64,000 nucleotides of DNA, taken from Phycisphaerales bacterium (GTDB taxonomy: Bacteria > Planctomycetota > Phycisphaerae > Tepidisphaerales > Tepidisphaeraceae). This document shows positions 7,589 through 25,592 of this stretch, one piece after another. Position numbers and translations under genes: made by a program. The notes beneath the pieces were generated by a model. The model saw only the letters and a program-made list of their open reading frames with translations. It had not been told where the DNA came from and ran no database searches. Numbering within the stretch: position 1 is the first letter of the stretch; each line of letters starts with the position of its first letter. The stretch is from positions 1 to 64,000 of the forward strand of contig JADYZN010000034.1 in NCBI GenBank assembly GCA_020853095.1. The letters are read 5' to 3'.

Positions 7589-10249
7589 ATGGTTTTGACC
7601 AAGGGCGAGACACAACTGAGCGGCGACAGGCGGATTTTCATTCGCCAATTGTTGAATTGCATTCTGCTCGCGCTGGTCGCATGGGGGGTTTTTGGCACGG
7701 CTTTGGGCATGGGGGTCGCATCGGCGGCCGAGGAACACGAACACATCAAGCTGCGCACCGGTTTGCTGCCGATCACCGGAGACAACAACCCGGTGGCCCA
7801 GGCGGAACGGCAGGTCATCGCGCTGTTCCGGGCGAAATTTCCATGGATCGAGCCGGTGTCGGCGACCGGGTTGCAACTGCCCGGCGGGCAGACGATGGAC
7901 ATGGTTCCATTCATGCAGATCGCCGGCGACATGGCGCCAGACCTGATGTACGTCAACTTTCGCCAGTCGCAGACGTACATCAGCATGAAACTGCTCTACC
8001 CGCTGGATGAGTACGTGGAGGCGGCGGCGAAGGTGCATCCGGCCGACGGTTCGGCATTGACCACCGAACAATATCGCAAAATGCTGGAAAAAGGGGCGGG
8101 TTGGCCGGAGCTGTCCAAGCGATTGGCCGAGCAGACCTGGGAGGTGATGCGGCGGGCATGTCCTTATGGCCAGGATTGCCCTTATCGCCAGAAATTGGGA
8201 CAGGCTCCGCTGGCGAAGCATTGGCACGTGTTTACGTTTCCGGTGCAGCCGCTGGTCATCGCGATGGTCTATGACAAGGGGCTGATCGCGGAATACGCCA
8301 AGCAGGGGGTCAAGCTGCGCACCCCCCAAAACTGGGATGAATTGATCCGTTGGGCGAAGATCATGACCAACCCGCCATTTGAATACGGCATGGCGTGGGC
8401 GACCAACATGGCCTCGTGGCAGTTTTTGTCATTTTTGTATTCGGCCGGCGGATACGTGGTGAAACAGGATGACAATGGGGATTGGCGCTGCGTGATCGAC
8501 AGCGACGAGGCGGCCGAGGCGGCGTGGTTTTACGCGCGGCTGCGGCTGGAAAAGGTGGTTCGCGGCGGGCGGACGTATCGGGGCGTGGTGGTTAACGAGG
8601 AAAACATCGATCCGAGCATCCGGTTCGCCTATTCGTACACCTACCTGGACTCGCAGTTTTTCTCGCAGGCGGGGGATTTGAGCAGCAAAGGGGTGGGCGC
8701 GGTGCCGGCGGGGCCGACCGGGCTTTCTCGCAGCGAGTTCAACGCCCGGATGGTGGGGATTTTTTCGGGTTTGCGGGACAACCCCCAGCGCCGGGATGCG
8801 GCCTGGGACTACGCATGGTTTTACGATGGCCCCGAGGCGCGCAAGATTCGCATGGAGTACATGGTGGAGATGGGGATGGGCCGGTTCGTTCGGCCGGAAA
8901 TCCTGCGGGATTTCAACGTAGACGGCCGTTACGACGACGTGATCCGCCAGATTCCCAAAGAACTCAACGAAACCTACCGCATCGCCATGCAGGGGGGCGT
9001 GCCCGAACCGTACGGCAAGAACTGCCAGTACATCTACTTTGAATTGAACAAGCCGCTGGGGGAGATCATCCAGAACCCCGAGATCATCGCGGCGGTGGAT
9101 GCGGGGGACAAGGTCAGGGGCAAGGCGGTCATCCGCGGAATTCTCAAACGCAGCCAGGAGTCGATCAACCAGCGGCTGCTGGGGATTTTGCCGCCGAAGG
9201 TACAAAAACAGCGGCAGATCGTGTCGTGGGTGGTCATCGCGGCGGTGACGTTGATTTTCGTGTGGGTGTTCAAACGGGTCTATCGCACGTTCCGCCCGCC
9301 CGAGGGGATCGAGGCGGGGGCATGGCAGTTCGGCAAATACCGTTTCGCCTACATCCTGCTGCTGCCGGCGATTCTGACCATCGGGATGTGGATGTACTGG
9401 CCGCTGGCAAAGGGCACGCTGATCGCGTTTCAGGATTACAGCGTGCTGGGAGACAGCCAGTGGGTGGGGTCGTCGCAGTTCGCATCCGTGTTGTTCGACG
9501 CCGAGTTCTGGCATTCGATGTGGCTGTCGCTGCTGTACGCGTTGATGTACATGTTTTTCGGGTTCTGGGTGCCGATCGCGCTGGCGTTTTTGCTGGTTGA
9601 AGTGCCGCGGGGCAAGGCGTTTTTCAGAACGATTTATTACCTGCCGGCGGTGTTGAGCGGCGCGGTGGTGATTTTCCTGTGGCGGAGCTTTTACAACGGC
9701 GACGGCCTGATCAACCAGGTGATCAACGGGCCGATCGTGGCGATCAACGCGATCTTCGGAACGCACCTCCAGATGGTGCACCAGGACTGGCTGAACAATC
9801 CGGCGGCGGCGCTGCTGTGCGTGCTGCTGCCGACGATCTGGGTGGGGATGGGGCCGGGATGCCTGATATACCTGGCGGCGCTCAAGACGGTCCCCGATGA
9901 GATTTACGAGGCGGCCGACCTCGACGGGGCGGGCATCTGGTCCAAGGTATTCCGCATCGCCATTCCGTCGATCAAGGCGCTGGTGATGATCAACTTCATC
10001 GGGGCGATGATCGGCGCGGTGCGCGGATCGTCCGCGTTCGTGCTGGCGATGACCGGCGGCGGCCCCTACAACGAGGCGGGCGGGGCGACCGAGGTGATCG
10101 GCCTGCACATTTTTTACGTCACGTTCGGCTATTTGAAATTCGGCACCGGCGCGGCGATGGCCTGGGTGCTGGGGGCGATGTTGATCGGATTCACCGTGGT
10201 CCAGTTGCAACGCCTCAGCCAACTGGAATTCAAGACGGCCAAGACCTGA
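7589..10249 (+). CDS. Fused sugar-binding protein and MalF-type ABC permease
   Basis: An 886-residue fusion. After an N-terminal hydrophobic segment (about 23-45), residues about 55-540 form an extracellular solute-binding domain of the carbohydrate type 1 kind (PFMQIAGDMAPDLMYVNF; AYSYTYLDSQFF). A transmembrane segment (about 550-570) leads to a MalF/UgpA-like permease (about 585-880) with GKYRFAYILLLPA, RTIYYLPAVLSG and the EAA loop EIYEAADLDGAGIWSKVFRIAIP that docks on an ATPase. The start is one base after the upstream stop. It probably pairs with the next gene as the second permease. No ATPase is encoded nearby, so a shared MsmX/UgpC-like ATPase elsewhere is inferred. Confidence 0.85.
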   Translation: MVLTKGETQLSGDRRIFIRQLLNCILLALVAWGVFGTALGMGVASAAEEHEHIKLRTGLLPITGDNNPVAQAERQVIALFRAKFPWIEPVSATGLQLPGGQTMDMVPFMQIAGDMAPDLMYVNFRQSQTYISMKLLYPLDEYVEAAAKVHPADGSALTTEQYRKMLEKGAGWPELSKRLAEQTWEVMRRACPYGQDCPYRQKLGQAPLAKHWHVFTFPVQPLVIAMVYDKGLIAEYAKQGVKLRTPQNWDELIRWAKIMTNPPFEYGMAWATNMASWQFLSFLYSAGGYVVKQDDNGDWRCVIDSDEAAEAAWFYARLRLEKVVRGGRTYRGVVVNEENIDPSIRFAYSYTYLDSQFFSQAGDLSSKGVGAVPAGPTGLSRSEFNARMVGIFSGLRDNPQRRDAAWDYAWFYDGPEARKIRMEYMVEMGMGRFVRPEILRDFNVDGRYDDVIRQIPKELNETYRIAMQGGVPEPYGKNCQYIYFELNKPLGEIIQNPEIIAAVDAGDKVRGKAVIRGILKRSQESINQRLLGILPPKVQKQRQIVSWVVIAAVTLIFVWVFKRVYRTFRPPEGIEAGAWQFGKYRFAYILLLPAILTIGMWMYWPLAKGTLIAFQDYSVLGDSQWVGSSQFASVLFDAEFWHSMWLSLLYALMYMFFGFWVPIALAFLLVEVPRGKAFFRTIYYLPAVLSGAVVIFLWRSFYNGDGLINQVINGPIVAINAIFGTHLQMVHQDWLNNPAAALLCVLLPTIWVGMGPGCLIYLAALKTVPDEIYEAADLDGAGIWSKVFRIAIPSIKALVMINFIGAMIGAVRGSSAFVLAMTGGGPYNEAGGATEVIGLHIFYVTFGYLKFGTGAAMAWVLGAMLIGFTVVQLQRLSQLEFKTAKT

Positions 10250-10272: not shown

Positions 10273-12294
10273 ATGCCCATTATCAGCCAGGTTGGCGGCC
10301 GCTCACTGAAGGTCAGGATGACCTATGGCGCGCTGTTCCTGATTCTGATCCTGGGGGGCGTCTCGATGATCTACCCGATGATGCTGATGGTCTCCGGGTC
10401 GGTGCAAAGCCAGGTGGATTATCCGAGGCTGTCGGTGCTGCCGGAATTTTTGTGGAACGATTCGCTGCTGTGGGGCAAATACATCCAGTCCAAATATGGC
10501 GTGATGGAATATGCCGATCGGTTTTTGAAATCCAGCCTCGGCGACTGGCGAAACATCAAACCACTTGATCATGTGGACCCCAACGCCGAGGCATTCATCG
10601 AGTATCGCGACAGCACCCCATGGCCCCGAGAATGGGCCTTGCCCGGACACTGGGAGTCGTCCAAGGTCATCGCCAAGAACGGCCGGCGATACCGCGACAT
10701 GCTGCGCCAGGCGGCCGGGGATGACATCCAGTCGGTGAACGAAGCAACCGGCCTGTTTTACGCCGACTGGACCAGCGTGAACCTCCCCTCGGCGCGATTC
10801 TGGTCGCGCCGATTCAACTTTCCACAGACGGTGGATTACAAGGTTTTATACGAATTGACGGCCACCGCGCCCCACGCCGACTGGGTCATCGTCGATCCGG
10901 ATGGGGTGTTTTTATACGATTATCTGCGGCCGCAATGGGGGGATGTGCAGTCGTACAACCAGGCTCACGGAACACAGTACGAGAAGTATGACCAGGTTCT
11001 GCTGGCCACCCATCCGCCCGAAAATCCCAGCGAACGAACGGACTGGGAAAAATTCGTCCGCACTGAACTGAACATCGCCTTCATCCGCATCAACCCGGCC
11101 GCGACGGGGGGTTGGCGGGAATTCCTGCGACAACGGTACAGCGGCAAAATTCAGAACCTGAACCGCGAATGGAAATCCCAATGGCCTGGCTTTGACGCGA
11201 TCTCGCTGCCCGAAGGATTGCCCCGGGAAAACGCCATCCAAAGCGACCTGGGGGCGTTTGTGAAGGATGCGGCAAACTGCCCGCTGGACGCCCTTTCCAT
11301 CTACGGCCCCCGACAGGGATTTGAACAGTACGTCGCCAAGCAGAAAAACGTGGAGGTTTCACAGGTCGCCCCGCTGCCGATTCCCACCGAATCGGTCGAT
11401 TATCTGGACTTTCAAAAGAACAAGGGGTCCTTGCGCTGGGAATTCGTCAAGCGCAACTACATCGCGGTGATGGATTATCTGCTGGTGCATGGCAACGGCA
11501 TCCGCAACACGGTGATCTTCTGCTTTTTGATGGTGATGACCAACCTGCTGGTCAACCCGCTGGCGGCCTATGCGCTGAGCCGATACCGCCCCCCCAGCAC
11601 CTACACCATCCTGCTGTTCTGCATGGCGACGATGGCCTTCCCGGCGGAAGTGACGATGATCCCGTCGTTTCTGTTGTTGAAACGCTTTCCCCTCTATGGG
11701 TTGTTGGTCGGAACGGTCGCCACACTATTAGTGGGGTGGTTGTTGAGTCGCTGGCGGCCAAACTGGCCATCCTTGCTGTCGGGGATGGTGGCGGTGGTGG
11801 TGGGAATCGCCGCGGGATGGTGGTTGACGCCGCTGGTGGCGCAGGAGATTTTTGGCCGGGAGCATGGGACGATCAGCCTGTTGAACACGTTCTGGGCCTT
11901 GGTGCTGCCGGGGATGGCCAATGGGTACAGCATCTTCCTGTTGAAGGGGTTTTTTGATTCGCTGCCCAAGGAACTGTACGAGGCCTCCGACATCGACGGG
12001 GCCAGCGAATGGACCAAGTTCTGGATGATCACGATGAGCCTCTCCAAGCCGATCCTGGCGGTTTTGGCGTTGGCGGCGTTCACAACGGCGTACAGCGAGT
12101 TCATGATGGCCCTGGTCATCATCCCGGATCAGGATATGTGGACGATCATGGTCTGGCTGTTCCAGTTACAAAGCCGATCGCACCCGACGTTGGTTTATGC
12201 CAGCCTCGTCATCGCGGCGATCCCGACGTTGATCATATTCCTGTTCTGTCAAAATCTGATCATTCGCGGTATTGTGGTGCCATCGGAAAAATAG
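10273..12294 (+). CDS. MalG-type ABC permease with large repeat-containing periplasmic insert
   Basis: A 673-residue permease, versus about 280 for MalG relatives. The first transmembrane helix (about 17-40) and the remaining core (from about 412) are separated by about 370 predicted periplasmic residues. In this insert a degenerate module recurs about every 70 residues near 67, 140, 214, 281 and 350 (for example YDYLRPQWGDVQSYN; WREFLRQRYSGKIQNLN). The EAA loop ELYEASDIDGASEWTKFWMI is intact. A second insertion of about 75 residues adds two helices before LNTFWALVLPG. It forms the partner of the upstream fused permease; the insert probably binds substrate or glycan, by inference. Confidence 0.85.
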   Translation: MPIISQVGGRSLKVRMTYGALFLILILGGVSMIYPMMLMVSGSVQSQVDYPRLSVLPEFLWNDSLLWGKYIQSKYGVMEYADRFLKSSLGDWRNIKPLDHVDPNAEAFIEYRDSTPWPREWALPGHWESSKVIAKNGRRYRDMLRQAAGDDIQSVNEATGLFYADWTSVNLPSARFWSRRFNFPQTVDYKVLYELTATAPHADWVIVDPDGVFLYDYLRPQWGDVQSYNQAHGTQYEKYDQVLLATHPPENPSERTDWEKFVRTELNIAFIRINPAATGGWREFLRQRYSGKIQNLNREWKSQWPGFDAISLPEGLPRENAIQSDLGAFVKDAANCPLDALSIYGPRQGFEQYVAKQKNVEVSQVAPLPIPTESVDYLDFQKNKGSLRWEFVKRNYIAVMDYLLVHGNGIRNTVIFCFLMVMTNLLVNPLAAYALSRYRPPSTYTILLFCMATMAFPAEVTMIPSFLLLKRFPLYGLLVGTVATLLVGWLLSRWRPNWPSLLSGMVAVVVGIAAGWWLTPLVAQEIFGREHGTISLLNTFWALVLPGMANGYSIFLLKGFFDSLPKELYEASDIDGASEWTKFWMITMSLSKPILAVLALAAFTTAYSEFMMALVIIPDQDMWTIMVWLFQLQSRSHPTLVYASLVIAAIPTLIIFLFCQNLIIRGIVVPSEK

Positions 12295-12344: not shown

Positions 12345-13187
12345 ATGATAAAGACGATCAGTTACTGGTCGGTTCAGGGGGGATTGGAAGGGACAAGGCC
12401 GATCAATGAGGCGCTGGCCGATGCCAAGTCGGCCGGATTTGCGGGGTTGGAACTGGCGATCGCCGCCAGCGGCGTATTGACCCCCCAGACGGACCAGGCC
12501 ACCTGTCAGCGTTATCGCCAGGAGGCCGAACGCCAGGGGGTGATCGTGCAGACGCTGGCCAACGGGATGACCTGGGGGGGCAGCCCCACCGATCCGGATG
12601 AATCCGTGCGAAAAAAGGCGGTGGCGGACGCCAAGGCATCGCTGCAACGGGCGGCGTGGCTGGGTTGTCAGGCGATGCTGTACGTTCCGGGCGCGGTGAA
12701 AATCCCATGGGAACCCAAATATGGCCCGGTTCGTTACGATCTGGCGCACAAATGGGCCTTGGAGGGTGCCAGGGAGCTGGCGGAGGCGGCCGAGAAGTTC
12801 AGCGTGGACCTGTGCGTGGAGAACGTATGGAATGGCCTGATGTATTCGCCGCTAGAACTGGCGAAATTCATCGACGACATCGGCTCCAGACGGGTGGGCG
12901 TCTATTTTGACGTGGGCAACATGATGGGCCTGCACCAGCACCCGCCGGACTGGATCAAGATCCTGGGCGATCGTATCAAGCGGATTCACATCAAGGACTT
13001 CGATTCGGCCAAACCGGGAATGGCGGGTTTCGTGGACCTGCTGGCCGGCAACGTCCCGTGGGCGCAGGTGATGAAGGAATTGCGGGCATTGAAATATGAC
13101 AAGACGATCGTGGCGGAGATGATGCCATACGATCCGACGTTGTTGCAGCGCACCAGCACGGCGATGGACAAGATTCTGGCGATGTGA
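12345..13187 (+). CDS. Sugar phosphate isomerase/epimerase (TIM barrel), copy 1
   Basis: A 280-residue xylose-isomerase-like TIM barrel. Putative metal ligands are seen in order: Glu in LCVENVWNG, Asp in GVYFDVGNMM, His in RIHIKDFD and Glu in VAEMMPYD, as in hydroxypyruvate isomerases and L-xylulose or tagatose 3-epimerases. It is 50 bases after the permease gene and followed by a second, divergent copy. The pair most likely interconverts keto-sugars or inositol derivatives imported by the upstream transporter. The exact substrate cannot be read from sequence. Confidence 0.8.
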   Translation: MIKTISYWSVQGGLEGTRPINEALADAKSAGFAGLELAIAASGVLTPQTDQATCQRYRQEAERQGVIVQTLANGMTWGGSPTDPDESVRKKAVADAKASLQRAAWLGCQAMLYVPGAVKIPWEPKYGPVRYDLAHKWALEGARELAEAAEKFSVDLCVENVWNGLMYSPLELAKFIDDIGSRRVGVYFDVGNMMGLHQHPPDWIKILGDRIKRIHIKDFDSAKPGMAGFVDLLAGNVPWAQVMKELRALKYDKTIVAEMMPYDPTLLQRTSTAMDKILAM

Positions 13188-13211
13188 AAAACATCATTAT
13201 TTGGAATAAAC

Positions 13212-14060
13212 ATGAACGGCAACTGGTTGAAGGAACATCTTGGGATTTGCAGTTGGTCATTGCACGCCACCGATGCCGATGACCTGGTGAAGCAGCTTTC
13301 GGCGGTGGGGCTGGCCAGGGTGCAACTGGCGCTTGGCCCGCTTCGCGATGAGCCGGACAAGTGGAAGGGTGTGGATCGCAAGCTCGCGGATGCGGGGATG
13401 AAAATCGTCTCCGGCATGGTGGGGACGGTGGGAGAGGATTACAGCACGATCGCCGCGATCCGCCGCACCGGCGGGCTGGTGCCGGATGACACCTGGCCGC
13501 AGTCGCTGGAGGTCATGAAAAGATCGGCGCCGGTCGCGGCCGGCCTGGGCGTCAGAATGGTGAGCTTTCATGCGGGGTTCATCCCCGCGGGCAAGGATGA
13601 TCCGGCGTTCAACAAGGTGGTCGACCGGCTGGGAAAGGTGGCGGACATCTTCAAGGAAGTCGGCTGCACGATTTTTCTGGAGACCGGCCAGGAGGCCGCG
13701 ACGACGTTGCAGCGATGCCTTAAAACGTTGAACCGTCCGGATGTGGGGGTGAACTTCGACCCGGCCAACATGCTGCTGTACCGCAGCGGCGACCCCATCG
13801 AGGCGATGAAACTGCTGCTGCCGCACATCGTGCAGTTTCACGTCAAGGATGCGATCCGCAGCGATGCTGACGGCAAGTGGGGCGAGGAAGTGGCGGTCGG
13901 CACGGGCGAGGTGGACTGGGCGGGATTTTTCGGTGTCCTGAAGGAGAACAACTGGAACAGGGGCAACCTGGTGATCGAGCGCGAGGCGGGCGATCAGCGC
14001 GTGGCCGACATTCGCCAGGCGCAGAATTTTCTTCACGGCGTATTTGGAAAGGCGGATTAG
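13212..14060 (+). CDS. Sugar phosphate isomerase/epimerase (TIM barrel), copy 2
   Basis: A 282-residue member of the same superfamily as the preceding gene, but clearly diverged (not a recent duplicate). Putative metal ligands lie in IFLETGQE, GVNFDPANML, QFHVKDAI and LVIEREAGD. Two such proteins next to a Gfo/Idh/MocA dehydrogenase is a recurrent arrangement in inositol- or rare-sugar-degrading loci of planctomycetes. The ATG at 13212 is 24 bases after the previous stop; the gene ends 4 bases before the dehydrogenase. Confidence 0.8.
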   Translation: MNGNWLKEHLGICSWSLHATDADDLVKQLSAVGLARVQLALGPLRDEPDKWKGVDRKLADAGMKIVSGMVGTVGEDYSTIAAIRRTGGLVPDDTWPQSLEVMKRSAPVAAGLGVRMVSFHAGFIPAGKDDPAFNKVVDRLGKVADIFKEVGCTIFLETGQEAATTLQRCLKTLNRPDVGVNFDPANMLLYRSGDPIEAMKLLLPHIVQFHVKDAIRSDADGKWGEEVAVGTGEVDWAGFFGVLKENNWNRGNLVIEREAGDQRVADIRQAQNFLHGVFGKAD

Positions 14061-14064
14061 GCTT

Positions 14065-15072
14065 ATGTTGAAAGTGGGAATCATCGGTCTGGGGATGATG
14101 GGCCGGACGCATTACGAGGCGTATCAGAAGATCGAGGGCGTGGAAGTCGTCGCCATCGCCGACACCGATCCCAAGCGCGCCGCCGGAGACCTGACCGGAA
14201 CCGGCGGCAATCTCCTGCAAGGTGGGTTGTCGCGCCTGCCCATGGACAAGATCAAGGGATTGGGTGATTACCGCCAGTTGCTGGCGATCAAGGACCTGGA
14301 CATCGTTGACATCTGCTCGCGCACGCCGATGCACGCCGAGATGACGGCCGCGGCGCTGGAGTCCGGCAAGCACGTGATGTGCGAAAAACCGCTGGGGCGA
14401 ACCGTGGCCGAAGCACAAAAAATCGCGGACGCCGCGGCCAAAGCAAAGGGTTTGTTCATGCCGGCGATGTGCATCCGGTTCTGGCCGGAATGGGCCTGGG
14501 CCAAGGAAGCGGTCAAGAGCGGCCGCTATGGCAGGGTGCTGGGGGCGCATTTCCGCCGGGTCGCCTCGTTTCCCGGCGGGTGGTACAAGGATGGGGACGC
14601 CAGCGGCGGCGCGATCCTCGACCTGCACATTCACGATTCGGATTTTGTCTATTATCTGTTCGGCATGCCCAGGGGGGTTTTCAGCCGCGGATTCAGCAAG
14701 CCGACCAACCAGATCGATCACCTGGTCACGCAATATCTGTATGACGATGTGCCGGTCGTCATGGCCGAAGGGTCGTGGGCGCAGGCGGATGGGTATGGGT
14801 TTACCATGCGTTACACGATCACCTTTGAGAACGCCACGGCCGATTATGATCTGGGGCGTTCGGACACCCTGCTGCTGTACCAGGGCGGCAAGGCCGAGCC
14901 GATCCGCACCCAAGGGGGCACCGGATACGAGGCGGAGCTGGGGTATTTCGTGAATTGCATCAAAAAAGGCGAAAAACCTTCCGTGGTCAACGCCTCCGAC
15001 GCGGTGCCGGGATTGAAAATCGTCGAGGCCGAGGGAAAGAGCATCCGCGAAGGGAAAGTGGTTTCGCTGTAA
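14065..15072 (+). CDS. Gfo/Idh/MocA-family NAD(P)-dependent oxidoreductase
   Basis: A 335-residue dehydrogenase acting on a sugar or cyclitol. It has an N-terminal Rossmann fold (VGIIGLGMMGRTHYEAY), the family motif CEKPLGR at about residue 110, and the C-terminal GFO_IDH_MocA barrel domain (AILDLHIHDSDFVYYLFG). I chose the ATG at 14065, 4 bases after the upstream stop, because it places the Rossmann strand at the N-terminus. It presumably oxidises a product of the two upstream isomerases. Confidence 0.88.
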   Translation: MLKVGIIGLGMMGRTHYEAYQKIEGVEVVAIADTDPKRAAGDLTGTGGNLLQGGLSRLPMDKIKGLGDYRQLLAIKDLDIVDICSRTPMHAEMTAAALESGKHVMCEKPLGRTVAEAQKIADAAAKAKGLFMPAMCIRFWPEWAWAKEAVKSGRYGRVLGAHFRRVASFPGGWYKDGDASGGAILDLHIHDSDFVYYLFGMPRGVFSRGFSKPTNQIDHLVTQYLYDDVPVVMAEGSWAQADGYGFTMRYTITFENATADYDLGRSDTLLLYQGGKAEPIRTQGGTGYEAELGYFVNCIKKGEKPSVVNASDAVPGLKIVEAEGKSIREGKVVSL

Positions 15073-22394: not shown

Positions 22395-23225
22395 CTAACC
22401 CTTGACCGCGCCCAGTTGGATGCCGGAGACGAAAAATCGCTGGCCCAGCACGAAGACCGCCAGCATGGGGATCAGCATGATGACCGAGCCGGCCATCAAC
22501 AGCGTCCATTGGACGCCGTGCAATTCCTGAAACTGACTGAGGGCCACCGGCGCGGTGACCATGTTCTGGCTCTGGCAGACGATCAACGGCCACATGAAAC
22601 TTCGCCAGCTCCCCATGAAGACCAGGATGCCCAGCGCCGCGATGGCGGGCTTGGCCAGCGGCAACACGACGTTCCAGTAGATCCCCCAGCTCGTGCAGCC
22701 GTCGATGACGGCCGCTTCCTCCAGTTCGCGGGGGATGGAGAGGAAAAACTGCCGAAGCATGAACGTGCCATAGGCGCTGAAGGCGGCCGGCAGGATCAGC
22801 GCCCAGTAGGTGTCGATCCACCCCATCGCGCGCAGCAGGATGAAGACCGGGATCATCGTCACCACGTCCGGAACCATCATGGTGGACAGATACCCCATGA
22901 AAATCGCGTTTCGTCCCCTGAACCGCAGCCGGGCGAACGCATACGCCGCCAGCGAGCTGGTGAACAGCTGCGCCACGGTGACGCAGACGGTCACCAGGGC
23001 GCTGTTGTAAACCGCGCGGGCGAAATTCGTGCCCGACCAGATGCGCTGATAGTTGCGCCATTCCAACGCCCCGTGCAGCAGCGAGCGCAGGTCCATCACG
23101 TCCGCGCCGGGTTTTTGGAAACTGGTGGAGAGCATCCAGACCAGCGGAAAGACCATCGACACGCCGATGACGATCAGCAGCGGATAGGTCATCGCCCGGG
23201 CGAAAAGGTTTTGTTTGCGTTCCAT
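22395..23225 (-). CDS. Carbohydrate ABC transporter permease (MalG/UgpE type)
   Basis: A 276-residue inner-membrane permease with six predicted helices. MVFPLVWMLSTSFQKPGADV is near the N-terminus. The EAA loop ELEEAAVIDGCTSWGIYWNVVLPLAKP docks the ATPase. The last of three genes in a leftward transport operon (binding protein, MalF-type, MalG-type), starting 10 bases after the upstream permease. No ATPase gene follows. Confidence 0.92.
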   Translation of the reverse strand: MERKQNLFARAMTYPLLIVIGVSMVFPLVWMLSTSFQKPGADVMDLRSLLHGALEWRNYQRIWSGTNFARAVYNSALVTVCVTVAQLFTSSLAAYAFARLRFRGRNAIFMGYLSTMMVPDVVTMIPVFILLRAMGWIDTYWALILPAAFSAYGTFMLRQFFLSIPRELEEAAVIDGCTSWGIYWNVVLPLAKPAIAALGILVFMGSWRSFMWPLIVCQSQNMVTAPVALSQFQELHGVQWTLLMAGSVIMLIPMLAVFVLGQRFFVSGIQLGAVKG

Positions 23226-23235
23226 CGGTTGATTC

Positions 23236-24138
23236 TCACTCGGTGGCGCCGCGCCCGAAGCGCCAGCTCAGGATCGTCACGAACAACACCAGCGCGAACA
23301 ACACCAGCGACAACGCCGCCGCGTAACCCATGTTGAAATACTCGAAGGCGTGGTTGTAGATGTAATAGCTGATCGTGGTGGTGGCCCCGTCCGGGCCGCC
23401 GTTGGTCAGGATGTAGGCCATGTCAAAGCCCCCCTGAAAACCACCGATGACGGCGGTGATGAAGATGAAAAACGTCGTGGGGGCCAGCATCGGGATGGTG
23501 ATGTGGCGAAATTGATGCAGCACGTTGGCCCCGTCCATCTCGGCCGCCTCGTACAGTTCCGGCGGGATCCCCTGCAAACCGGCCAGGTACAGGATCATGC
23601 CCGTCCCCCCCATGCCGCCCCAGATCATGATGATCATCAAGGCGGGCTTGGACCAGTTGTAACTGTTCAGCCAGTCCGGACCGGTGATGCCCACCCACGC
23701 CAGCAGGTGATTGATCAATCCGAAATCGTTGTTGTAAAGAAATTTCCAGAGCAGCAGCAACCCCACCCCCGCGCAGATGCTCGGCAGGTAAAAAACCGCG
23801 CGGAAGAACATCCGGCCTGGAATTTTCTGGTTCAACAGCACCGCCAGCACCAGCGAGCAGAACATGGTGATCGGAATCGCCAGCATCAGGTAGAGCGTGT
23901 TGTAGAGATATTTCCAGAAGCTGGCGTCGTTGAACACCAACGCCCCCTCGGCGTCGTGCCGCCAACCGAGCAGGTCGCTGAAATTTTGCAGCCCCACGAA
24001 TTTGGGCGGGTGGAACAAATCCCACCGGAAAAAACTCAACGCCATCGCCGCCGCCACCGGAATCAACACGAATATCGCGAACCCCGTCAGGTTGGGCAGC
24101 AGATACAGCAGCGGCGTGAGTCGATGATGGTGTCGCAT
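23236..24138 (-). CDS. Carbohydrate ABC transporter permease (MalF/UgpA type)
   Basis: A 300-residue permease. It begins LTPLLYLLPNLTGFAIFVLIP, typical of the UgpA/MsmF group, with AVFYLPSICAGVGLLLLWKFLY in the middle and the EAA loop ELYEAAEMDGANVLHQFRHIT. Six transmembrane helices are expected. It starts 7 bases after the binding-protein gene's stop and pairs with the next permease. Confidence 0.92.
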   Translation of the reverse strand: MRHHHRLTPLLYLLPNLTGFAIFVLIPVAAAMALSFFRWDLFHPPKFVGLQNFSDLLGWRHDAEGALVFNDASFWKYLYNTLYLMLAIPITMFCSLVLAVLLNQKIPGRMFFRAVFYLPSICAGVGLLLLWKFLYNNDFGLINHLLAWVGITGPDWLNSYNWSKPALMIIMIWGGMGGTGMILYLAGLQGIPPELYEAAEMDGANVLHQFRHITIPMLAPTTFFIFITAVIGGFQGGFDMAYILTNGGPDGATTTISYYIYNHAFEYFNMGYAAALSLVLFALVLFVTILSWRFGRGATE

Positions 24139-24145
24139 GAAACGT

Positions 24146-25435
24146 TCACTCCTGGCGCTGCCGGTGTCGTTCGATCAGCCAGTTGATCTGCCGCTGGGCG
24201 CGTTCCATCGCCTGCGCGGGCGTGGCGGTTCCCATCCAGACGGTGTCGCAGGCATCGACGAACGGCCTGAACAATTCGGTCACGTTGGCGATGCGGGGCT
24301 TGGCGTACAGAAAATCCCGCGCCTTGATCAACACCCGCAGATTCGCCGGCTTGCGGGTGTTTTCCGCCACCATCCGGCGCGCGACGCTGAGATTGGGGGG
24401 CAGCCCCCCCTTTTCGCACATGCGCAACTGGAAATCTCCGCTTAGAAACATCCTGTTCAATTCCCAGGCCTCCTGGGGGTGGTGAGTGCGGGAAGAAATC
24501 AATATGGCGGCGCTGGACGCCCACTGGCCGCGTTGGCGCACTTTCGGGTTCAGCGTGATGTCCCAATCCATGTCCGCGCATTGTTCCCGCAAAAAGGGCA
24601 TATCCCAGGTGTACGCCCTGAGCATCGCCGCCTTGCCCTGTCGAAAGATCGTGTAGACATCCGACCCCGCCCCGTTGATCTGCTGGGGCGACGGCGCAAC
24701 GTGATAGCGGGCGAACAGATCGCGGTTGGTTTGAAGATAATCCAGCATCTGCGGCGTGTCGCAGGTGGCATGGGTTCCATCGTTGGAGATGAACTGCGCG
24801 CCGAACAGGCTGGAGTCCAACTGGCCGTAAAAACCCAGTTGATCCACGCGGCCATCCCCATCGCGGTCCACCGTCAGTTTTTGCGCATCGGTCAGAAATT
24901 CCTCATACTCCCAGTCATCCAGCGGATAGGGCAGCCCGGCCTCGTCAAACGCCTTTTTGTTGTAGATGATGAACTGCACGTCGATCAGAAAGGGCGCCCC
25001 CAGTTGCCGGCCGTTGATGCGATACCATTGCAACGCCTGCGGCAGGAAATCCGAGGTGTCGATGTCCCGCTCCAGACGATCGCCGACGTCCATGAACGCC
25101 CCCCGGCTGGCGAATTCGGCGAACCCCTCCCCCATCCATACCAGGTCCGGCGGCATCCCCGAAGCCATCATAATCAGCAGTTTTTGGTAATAGTTCCCTG
25201 AGATCGACCGAAACTCCACCGCGATGTGGGGATGTTCTGCCTCGAAGCGGGTGATGACCCGCCGATAATGCACCTCATCCGACTGGCTGGCCGGCACCGC
25301 CAGCACCAGCTTGAGCGGCCGGTTCGGATCGGCCGGCGGGTCGGCCCCCGGCCCCACCACGAACCATCCGCCGATCAACGCGGCGACGATCGCCGCCAAC
25401 AGCCAACTCAGGCCTCGCGGATCCTCATCAGCCAT
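24146..25435 (-). CDS. Carbohydrate ABC transporter substrate-binding protein
   Basis: About 429 residues. An N-terminal membrane anchor (LLAAIVAALIGGWFVV), without a lipobox Cys, is followed by a type 1 solute-binding domain. Key stretches are HYRRVITRFEAEHPHIAVEF, MASGMPPDLVWMGEGFAEFA and IIYNKKAFDEAGLPYP. DRDGDGRVDQLGF looks like an EF-hand-type calcium loop, a common feature of these proteins. A GTG at 25459 would add 8 residues; I prefer the ATG at 25435. It heads a three-gene uptake operon for an unknown sugar or oligosaccharide. Confidence 0.9.
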   Translation of the reverse strand: MADEDPRGLSWLLAAIVAALIGGWFVVGPGADPPADPNRPLKLVLAVPASQSDEVHYRRVITRFEAEHPHIAVEFRSISGNYYQKLLIMMASGMPPDLVWMGEGFAEFASRGAFMDVGDRLERDIDTSDFLPQALQWYRINGRQLGAPFLIDVQFIIYNKKAFDEAGLPYPLDDWEYEEFLTDAQKLTVDRDGDGRVDQLGFYGQLDSSLFGAQFISNDGTHATCDTPQMLDYLQTNRDLFARYHVAPSPQQINGAGSDVYTIFRQGKAAMLRAYTWDMPFLREQCADMDWDITLNPKVRQRGQWASSAAILISSRTHHPQEAWELNRMFLSGDFQLRMCEKGGLPPNLSVARRMVAENTRKPANLRVLIKARDFLYAKPRIANVTELFRPFVDACDTVWMGTATPAQAMERAQRQINWLIERHRQRQE

Positions 25436-25592
25436 CGCTCGTGAGCCATTGTTCGTCACCGTGCGGGCCGCAAGTATACAAACATCGGGTAAACTTTCAT
25501 TAATAATTTATCCCCCCATCCCGCGATCCATCAGTTGTTGTAATCCGGATGAATCTGAACCTTTTTTGTACGAACCAGCCATTTTCCATTGA

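Follow-up and report, generated by a model that had tools for sequence, protein, structure and literature searches.

A tandem array of GH42-like modules in periplasmic loop P1 of a MalG-type ABC permease from a Phycisphaerales bacterium

The window analysed here, a 64,000 nt stretch of a Phycisphaerales bacterium contig (JADYZN010000034.1, assembly GCA_020853095.1), carries at 10273-12294 (+) a gene for a 673 aa ABC permease of the MalG/UgpE type with a modular periplasmic arm. Its product matches Pfam BPD_transp_1 (1.4e-8), the NCBIfam models UgpE (1.4e-19) and MalG (4.1e-18), both under their curated cut-offs, and MalG in the PDB (7.9e-14); Foldseek, given a full-length structural model, likewise retrieved MalG, its matches being solely to the transmembrane (TM) domains of ABC permeases. 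The gene adjoining it directly upstream, at 7589-10249 (+), encodes a partner subunit, a UgpA/MalF-type permease preceded in the same chain by a solute-binding domain and a TM helix (Pfam SBP_bac_1, 1.2e-12, residues 97-394; NCBIfam UgpA, 3.2e-22), as the initial annotation had recognised. The solute-binding domain, identified by the SBP_bac_1 match, occupies residues ~55-530 (7751-9178, +), and hydropathy places the linking helix at residues 541-566 (9209-9286, +). The locus hence encodes the MalG domain, the UgpA-type permease and the SBP_bac_1 protein typical of a CUT1/MalFG-type type I importer. One OB_MalK gene, found on another contig of the same genome, makes available a MalK/MsmX-type ATPase that may serve this importer. 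Downstream lie sugar-metabolism genes (12345-15072, +), comprising two xylose-isomerase-like TIM barrels and a Gfo/Idh/MocA oxidoreductase by Pfam, and judging from these neighbours the importer would move a carbohydrate. A second CUT1 importer, at 22395-25459 (-), is of the ordinary sort, its MalG, MalF and binding protein each being encoded by a gene of its own; it offers a helpful comparison for the fused importer.

In the MalG-type subunit, TM1 spans residues 12-42 (10306-10398, +), according to both AlphaFold2 and hydropathy, and TM2 spans residues 407-438 in the AlphaFold2 model. Approximately 360 extra residues separate TM1 from a conserved R-N-Y motif preceding TM2, a position that corresponds to loop P1 of MalG; AlphaFold2, both for the full-length protein and for the insert alone, modelled them as a periplasmic arm at residues 45-405 (10405-11487, +). 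The earlier observation that MalG lacks such an insert is borne out, and Pfam assigned no family to the insert of the window protein itself. The remainder, residues 406-673 (11488-12291, +), is a MalG-type membrane domain with an EAA loop, as identified by Pfam and Foldseek. A second insert, overlooked by the initial annotation, lies between TM3 and TM4 at residues 473-534 (11689-11874, +); AlphaFold2 models it as an extra hydrophobic helical hairpin, which is found in 32 of 74 relatives and missing from the rest. With this hairpin, the TM helices of the subunit probably number eight.

The arm comprises five modules, all on the forward strand: module 1 at residues 57-126 (10441-10650), module 2 at residues 131-205 (10663-10887), module 3, the most conserved, at residues 206-272 (10888-11088), module 4 at residues 273-343 (11089-11301) and module 5, truncated in this protein, at residues 344-384 (11302-11424). 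AlphaFold2 predicted the structure with high confidence (pLDDT 89 for the full protein; pLDDT 95.2 and pTM 0.91 for the insert alone), and both models contain the same recurring unit, consisting of helix A (~13 residues), helix B (~8), a 3/10 turn, helix C (~11) and a short strand. The A helices start at residues 63, 135, 209, 275 and 346. In module 5, helix B is eroded and the chain runs on into a helix leading towards TM2. The five motif strings on which the repeat was originally proposed are all found in the translation where they had been placed, inside or a few residues from the predicted helices, and a single helical unit, rather than unrelated folds, recurs at the five positions. The suggested 70-residue period holds approximately, the unit being ~65-75 residues; it needed correction in that helix C and the strand belong to the module and the fifth copy is incomplete.

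Likeness between the modules is weak when single sequences are considered, and it is profiles built from 74 aligned relatives sharing the insert that decide the matter. When the five modules were compared pairwise using hhalign, all 10 pairs were matched with probabilities of 95.4-99.5 and scores of 40-103, whereas column-shuffled controls had a mean score of ~10 and a maximum of 23. When modules were matched against unrelated segments, taken from the partner or the TM domain, none of 70 comparisons exceeded a score of 14.6 or a probability of 3.8. Chance periodicity can thus be rejected on the basis of the shuffled-column, reversed and unrelated-segment controls, and the degenerate tandem modules of the initial annotation are mutually homologous above chance. 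The most conserved positions of the arm, N229, W258, P249, N297 and D325, are those that define the repeat. Using Foldseek, no match to the whole array was found among solved structures (best E value 0.24), so a whole-fold relative in the PDB was discounted.

The suspected resemblance to GH42 beta-galactosidases extends to every module. Pfam GH42 was matched by six of the first ten relatives examined (best 3e-10) and by further relatives, mostly at profile positions ~137-210 of 376 and in at most three stretches per protein. A GH42 comparison profile of 379 columns was made from relatives of the class; hhalign aligned all five modules to one segment of it, columns 172-245, with probabilities of 92-97.6 and scores of 42-71 against a shuffled maximum of 18, module 4 being the closest (probability 97.6). 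When the module 4 profile (A3) was compared with all PDB chains, the top match was the GH42 enzyme 1kwg_A (4.7e-8, residues 154-218); further glycosidases, such as agarases, a GH167 enzyme and beta-amylases, came after it, so that a profile of one module selects clan-A glycosidases from the entire PDB. Outside the window, clear matches to the module profiles in the same genome were solely to GH42-type enzymes. The best local Foldseek matches of the insert were also glycosidases of GH42 type, all of them weak (E of 0.24 or above), so that structure searching concurs locally and not at E <= 0.001. Taken at the level of sequence profiles, all five modules are homologues of the helical stretch following strand beta4 in GH42-type TIM barrels.

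The complete GH42 TIM barrel, with its acid/base and nucleophile glutamates, is absent; as only a partial segment is present, an active GH42 domain in the permease was ruled out. The segment matched by the modules begins just past the acid/base Glu, and the catalytic residues fall outside the repeated stretch. In GH42, a Trp at the tip of a loop contacts the sugar (PMC10688820), and from residue numbering and the F-W-S-Q motif in the alignment this tip can be read as lying within the module-matched segment; the modules themselves do not have it. This bears on the idea that the arm binds glycans, with several low-affinity sites inherited from GH42 holding oligosaccharides beside the binding domain and so raising the local substrate concentration. 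Such a function would accord with the homology of the modules to a glycosidase segment, with the sugar-metabolism genes adjoining the window copy and some others, and with a variable repeat number, which would suit multivalency. It nevertheless seems unlikely, because the very tip that touches sugar in GH42 has been deleted; the position of the matched segment beyond the acid/base Glu also counts against it, as do the most conserved positions, which look like core residues and not like an exposed aromatic platform. Of the two roles initially suggested for the insert, glycan binding or docking, the latter is the more plausible.

Related stretches numbered at least 438 in a genome scan. The 80 best were retained, and their labels are mostly Phycisphaerae, Lentisphaerae, Kiritimatiellae and Verrucomicrobia, other phyla contributing single labels. 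The insert is present in 22 of 392 Planctomycetota genomes, and can occur more than once in a genome: about ten copies occur in one Phycisphaeraceae genome and four in one Victivallis genome. A search for a plasmid location produced no match to the insert. Five modules were counted in 64 of the 74 aligned relatives and, outside the set used for building the profiles, six in L217, seven in L209, L210 and L213 and seven to eight in L212, although these counts depend on the profile threshold and could be in error by one. One further locus, L218, is the same as L073 of the profile-building set. Across module numbers from 5 to 7-8, the fusion still adjoins the permease. Two irregular copies were also seen: a 1050 aa ORF, measured stop to stop, with a C-terminal permease and just three detected modules (L216:2616-5765), and a modular permease split over two frames near its N-terminus, through either a frameshift or an assembly error (L028:6695-6925).

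Arm and fusion are closely linked. A partner-like ORF lies directly upstream in 60 of 73 relatives; SBP and UgpA parts were both found in 56 of these ORFs, and the remaining four are short. Among the other 13 relatives, several start near the end of a contig or adjoin a truncated partner, and two loci, L051 and L084, have no adjacent partner despite available sequence. Among 61 related genomes, the SBP part of the partner family and the modular permease co-occur in the same nine. At the partner position of one relative is a 1497 aa ORF (stop to stop; L029:2806-7296) with a terminal UgpA-type domain and no other Pfam match. By contrast, the wider neighbourhood is too diverse to be a clue to the substrate: in a Pfam tally of 95 neighbours no family occurred in more than three, and no conserved third gene was recognised. 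These data weigh on the possibility that the array spans the periplasm as a spacer or anchor and tethers the importer to another component, which might be an outer-membrane channel, peptidoglycan or a periplasmic enzyme. A confidently predicted array without a whole-fold PDB match, in versions of 5 to ~8 modules as expected of a length-tuned spacer, would fit this; yet with no recognisable third gene conserved, and with linkage instead to the SBP fusion, we consider it improbable.

The dependence is not reciprocal. In four Phycisphaerae loci (L200, L201, L204 and L205), a long UgpA-type protein, with an SBP domain confirmed by Pfam for L200, is followed by a MalG-type gene as in the window, but the MalGs, of ordinary size (~280-340 aa), had no module match. 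Since such fusions exist alongside ordinary MalG, the fusion does not require the arm. In two further Phycisphaerae loci, L202:2755-4476 and L203:1222-3066, the MalGs adjoin long UgpA-type partners and have their P1 site occupied by different, non-module inserts of ~200-280 residues; this site seems to be a hot spot for insertions. The array could, on another account, chiefly stabilise or gate the MalG subunit and have no partner of its own. Its continuity with TM2, and the inserts of other sequence at the same site, are compatible with this; however, ordinary MalGs function without an array, and five or more intact modules have been kept over several phyla at ~25-40% identity, making this explanation very unlikely.

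For the E. coli maltose importer, contacts of MalE with loop P2 of MalF and loop P1 of MalG have been reported (Daus 2007, cited by title in PMC3150292). The favoured reading of the window system, which we judge evenly balanced between right and wrong, is that the array may be a docking and positioning arm for the tethered binding domain. It is the best available because the arm is located in P1, its linkage to the SBP-UgpA fusion is near-strict and there is weak residual covariation of evolutionary rates. In a mirror-tree analysis controlling for the TM domains, this covariation was small between insert and SBP (0.26) and no larger than between insert and UgpA (0.335); as proof of contact, the mirror-tree was not discriminating.

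According to this docking proposal, the locus would encode a two-gene CUT1 carbohydrate importer with a periplasmic gain in each subunit: a binding protein on a TM-helix tether in the partner and a rigid five-module array in P1 of the MalG-type subunit. An ancestor probably captured one GH42-type segment into P1, which would then have been duplicated, an order suggested because module number still varies among relatives. The array would hold the tethered binding domain above the translocation pore, and the helix connecting module 5 to TM2 could relay the open or closed state of that domain to the membrane domain; an array in the P1 loop of MalG would thus fill the role of the large P2 loop of E. 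coli MalF. Several observations sit awkwardly with a docking arm: ordinary MalGs beside SBP-UgpA fusions imply that a tethered domain can dock without one, a changing module number fits oddly with a single fixed docking geometry, and L051 and L084 have no adjacent partner. More tentatively, a hydrolase segment reaching into the sugar site of a neighbouring subunit may have been captured and multiplied into a length-variable arm for both docking and gating; were this true, a type I importer and its binding protein would here be coupled by a new route.

The transporter is of a known kind, whereas an enzyme-derived, length-variable repeat arm on a MalG-type subunit is new; no description of such an arm was found in the open papers searched. 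It represents an enzyme fragment made into a repeat protein within a membrane transporter, in bacterial groups whose sugar uptake has been little studied, several of which degrade polysaccharides. Should the arm dock the tethered binding protein, the relatives with five to ~eight modules would form a natural arm-length series for testing the coupling of binding protein and pore. The homology of the modules to a GH42 segment also explains why many such permeases bear Pfam GH42 labels, a likely source of wrong enzyme annotation.

Among known systems, GlnPQ and OpuA differ from the window importer in transporting other substrate classes, and neither is known to carry a repeat array on a second permease subunit. 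Both have a binding domain covalently joined to the membrane subunit, as in the window partner (PMC8025302, PMC11065425). Each module resembles residues 154-218 of the GH42 beta-galactosidase 1kwg in sequence, and weakly in local predicted fold, through the shared pattern F-x-x-[FW]L-x(3)-Y-g-x-[IL]-x-x-LN ... [SD]-[FW]-x-x-I-x-x-P ... D-[WF]-x-x-F; unlike the enzyme, with its barrel, catalytic Glu pair and Trp tip, the arm repeats this segment in tandem within a membrane protein. The CUT1 type I importer MalFGK2-MalE of E. coli similarly has a MalG-type domain with an EAA loop, and one of its permease subunits likewise bears a large periplasmic addition, MalF-P2, which contacts the binding protein. 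There, however, the addition is on MalF and the binding protein is free, whereas in the window importer it is the MalG-type subunit that bears the addition, in the form of GH42-derived repeats, and the partner subunit that carries the binding protein as a fusion.
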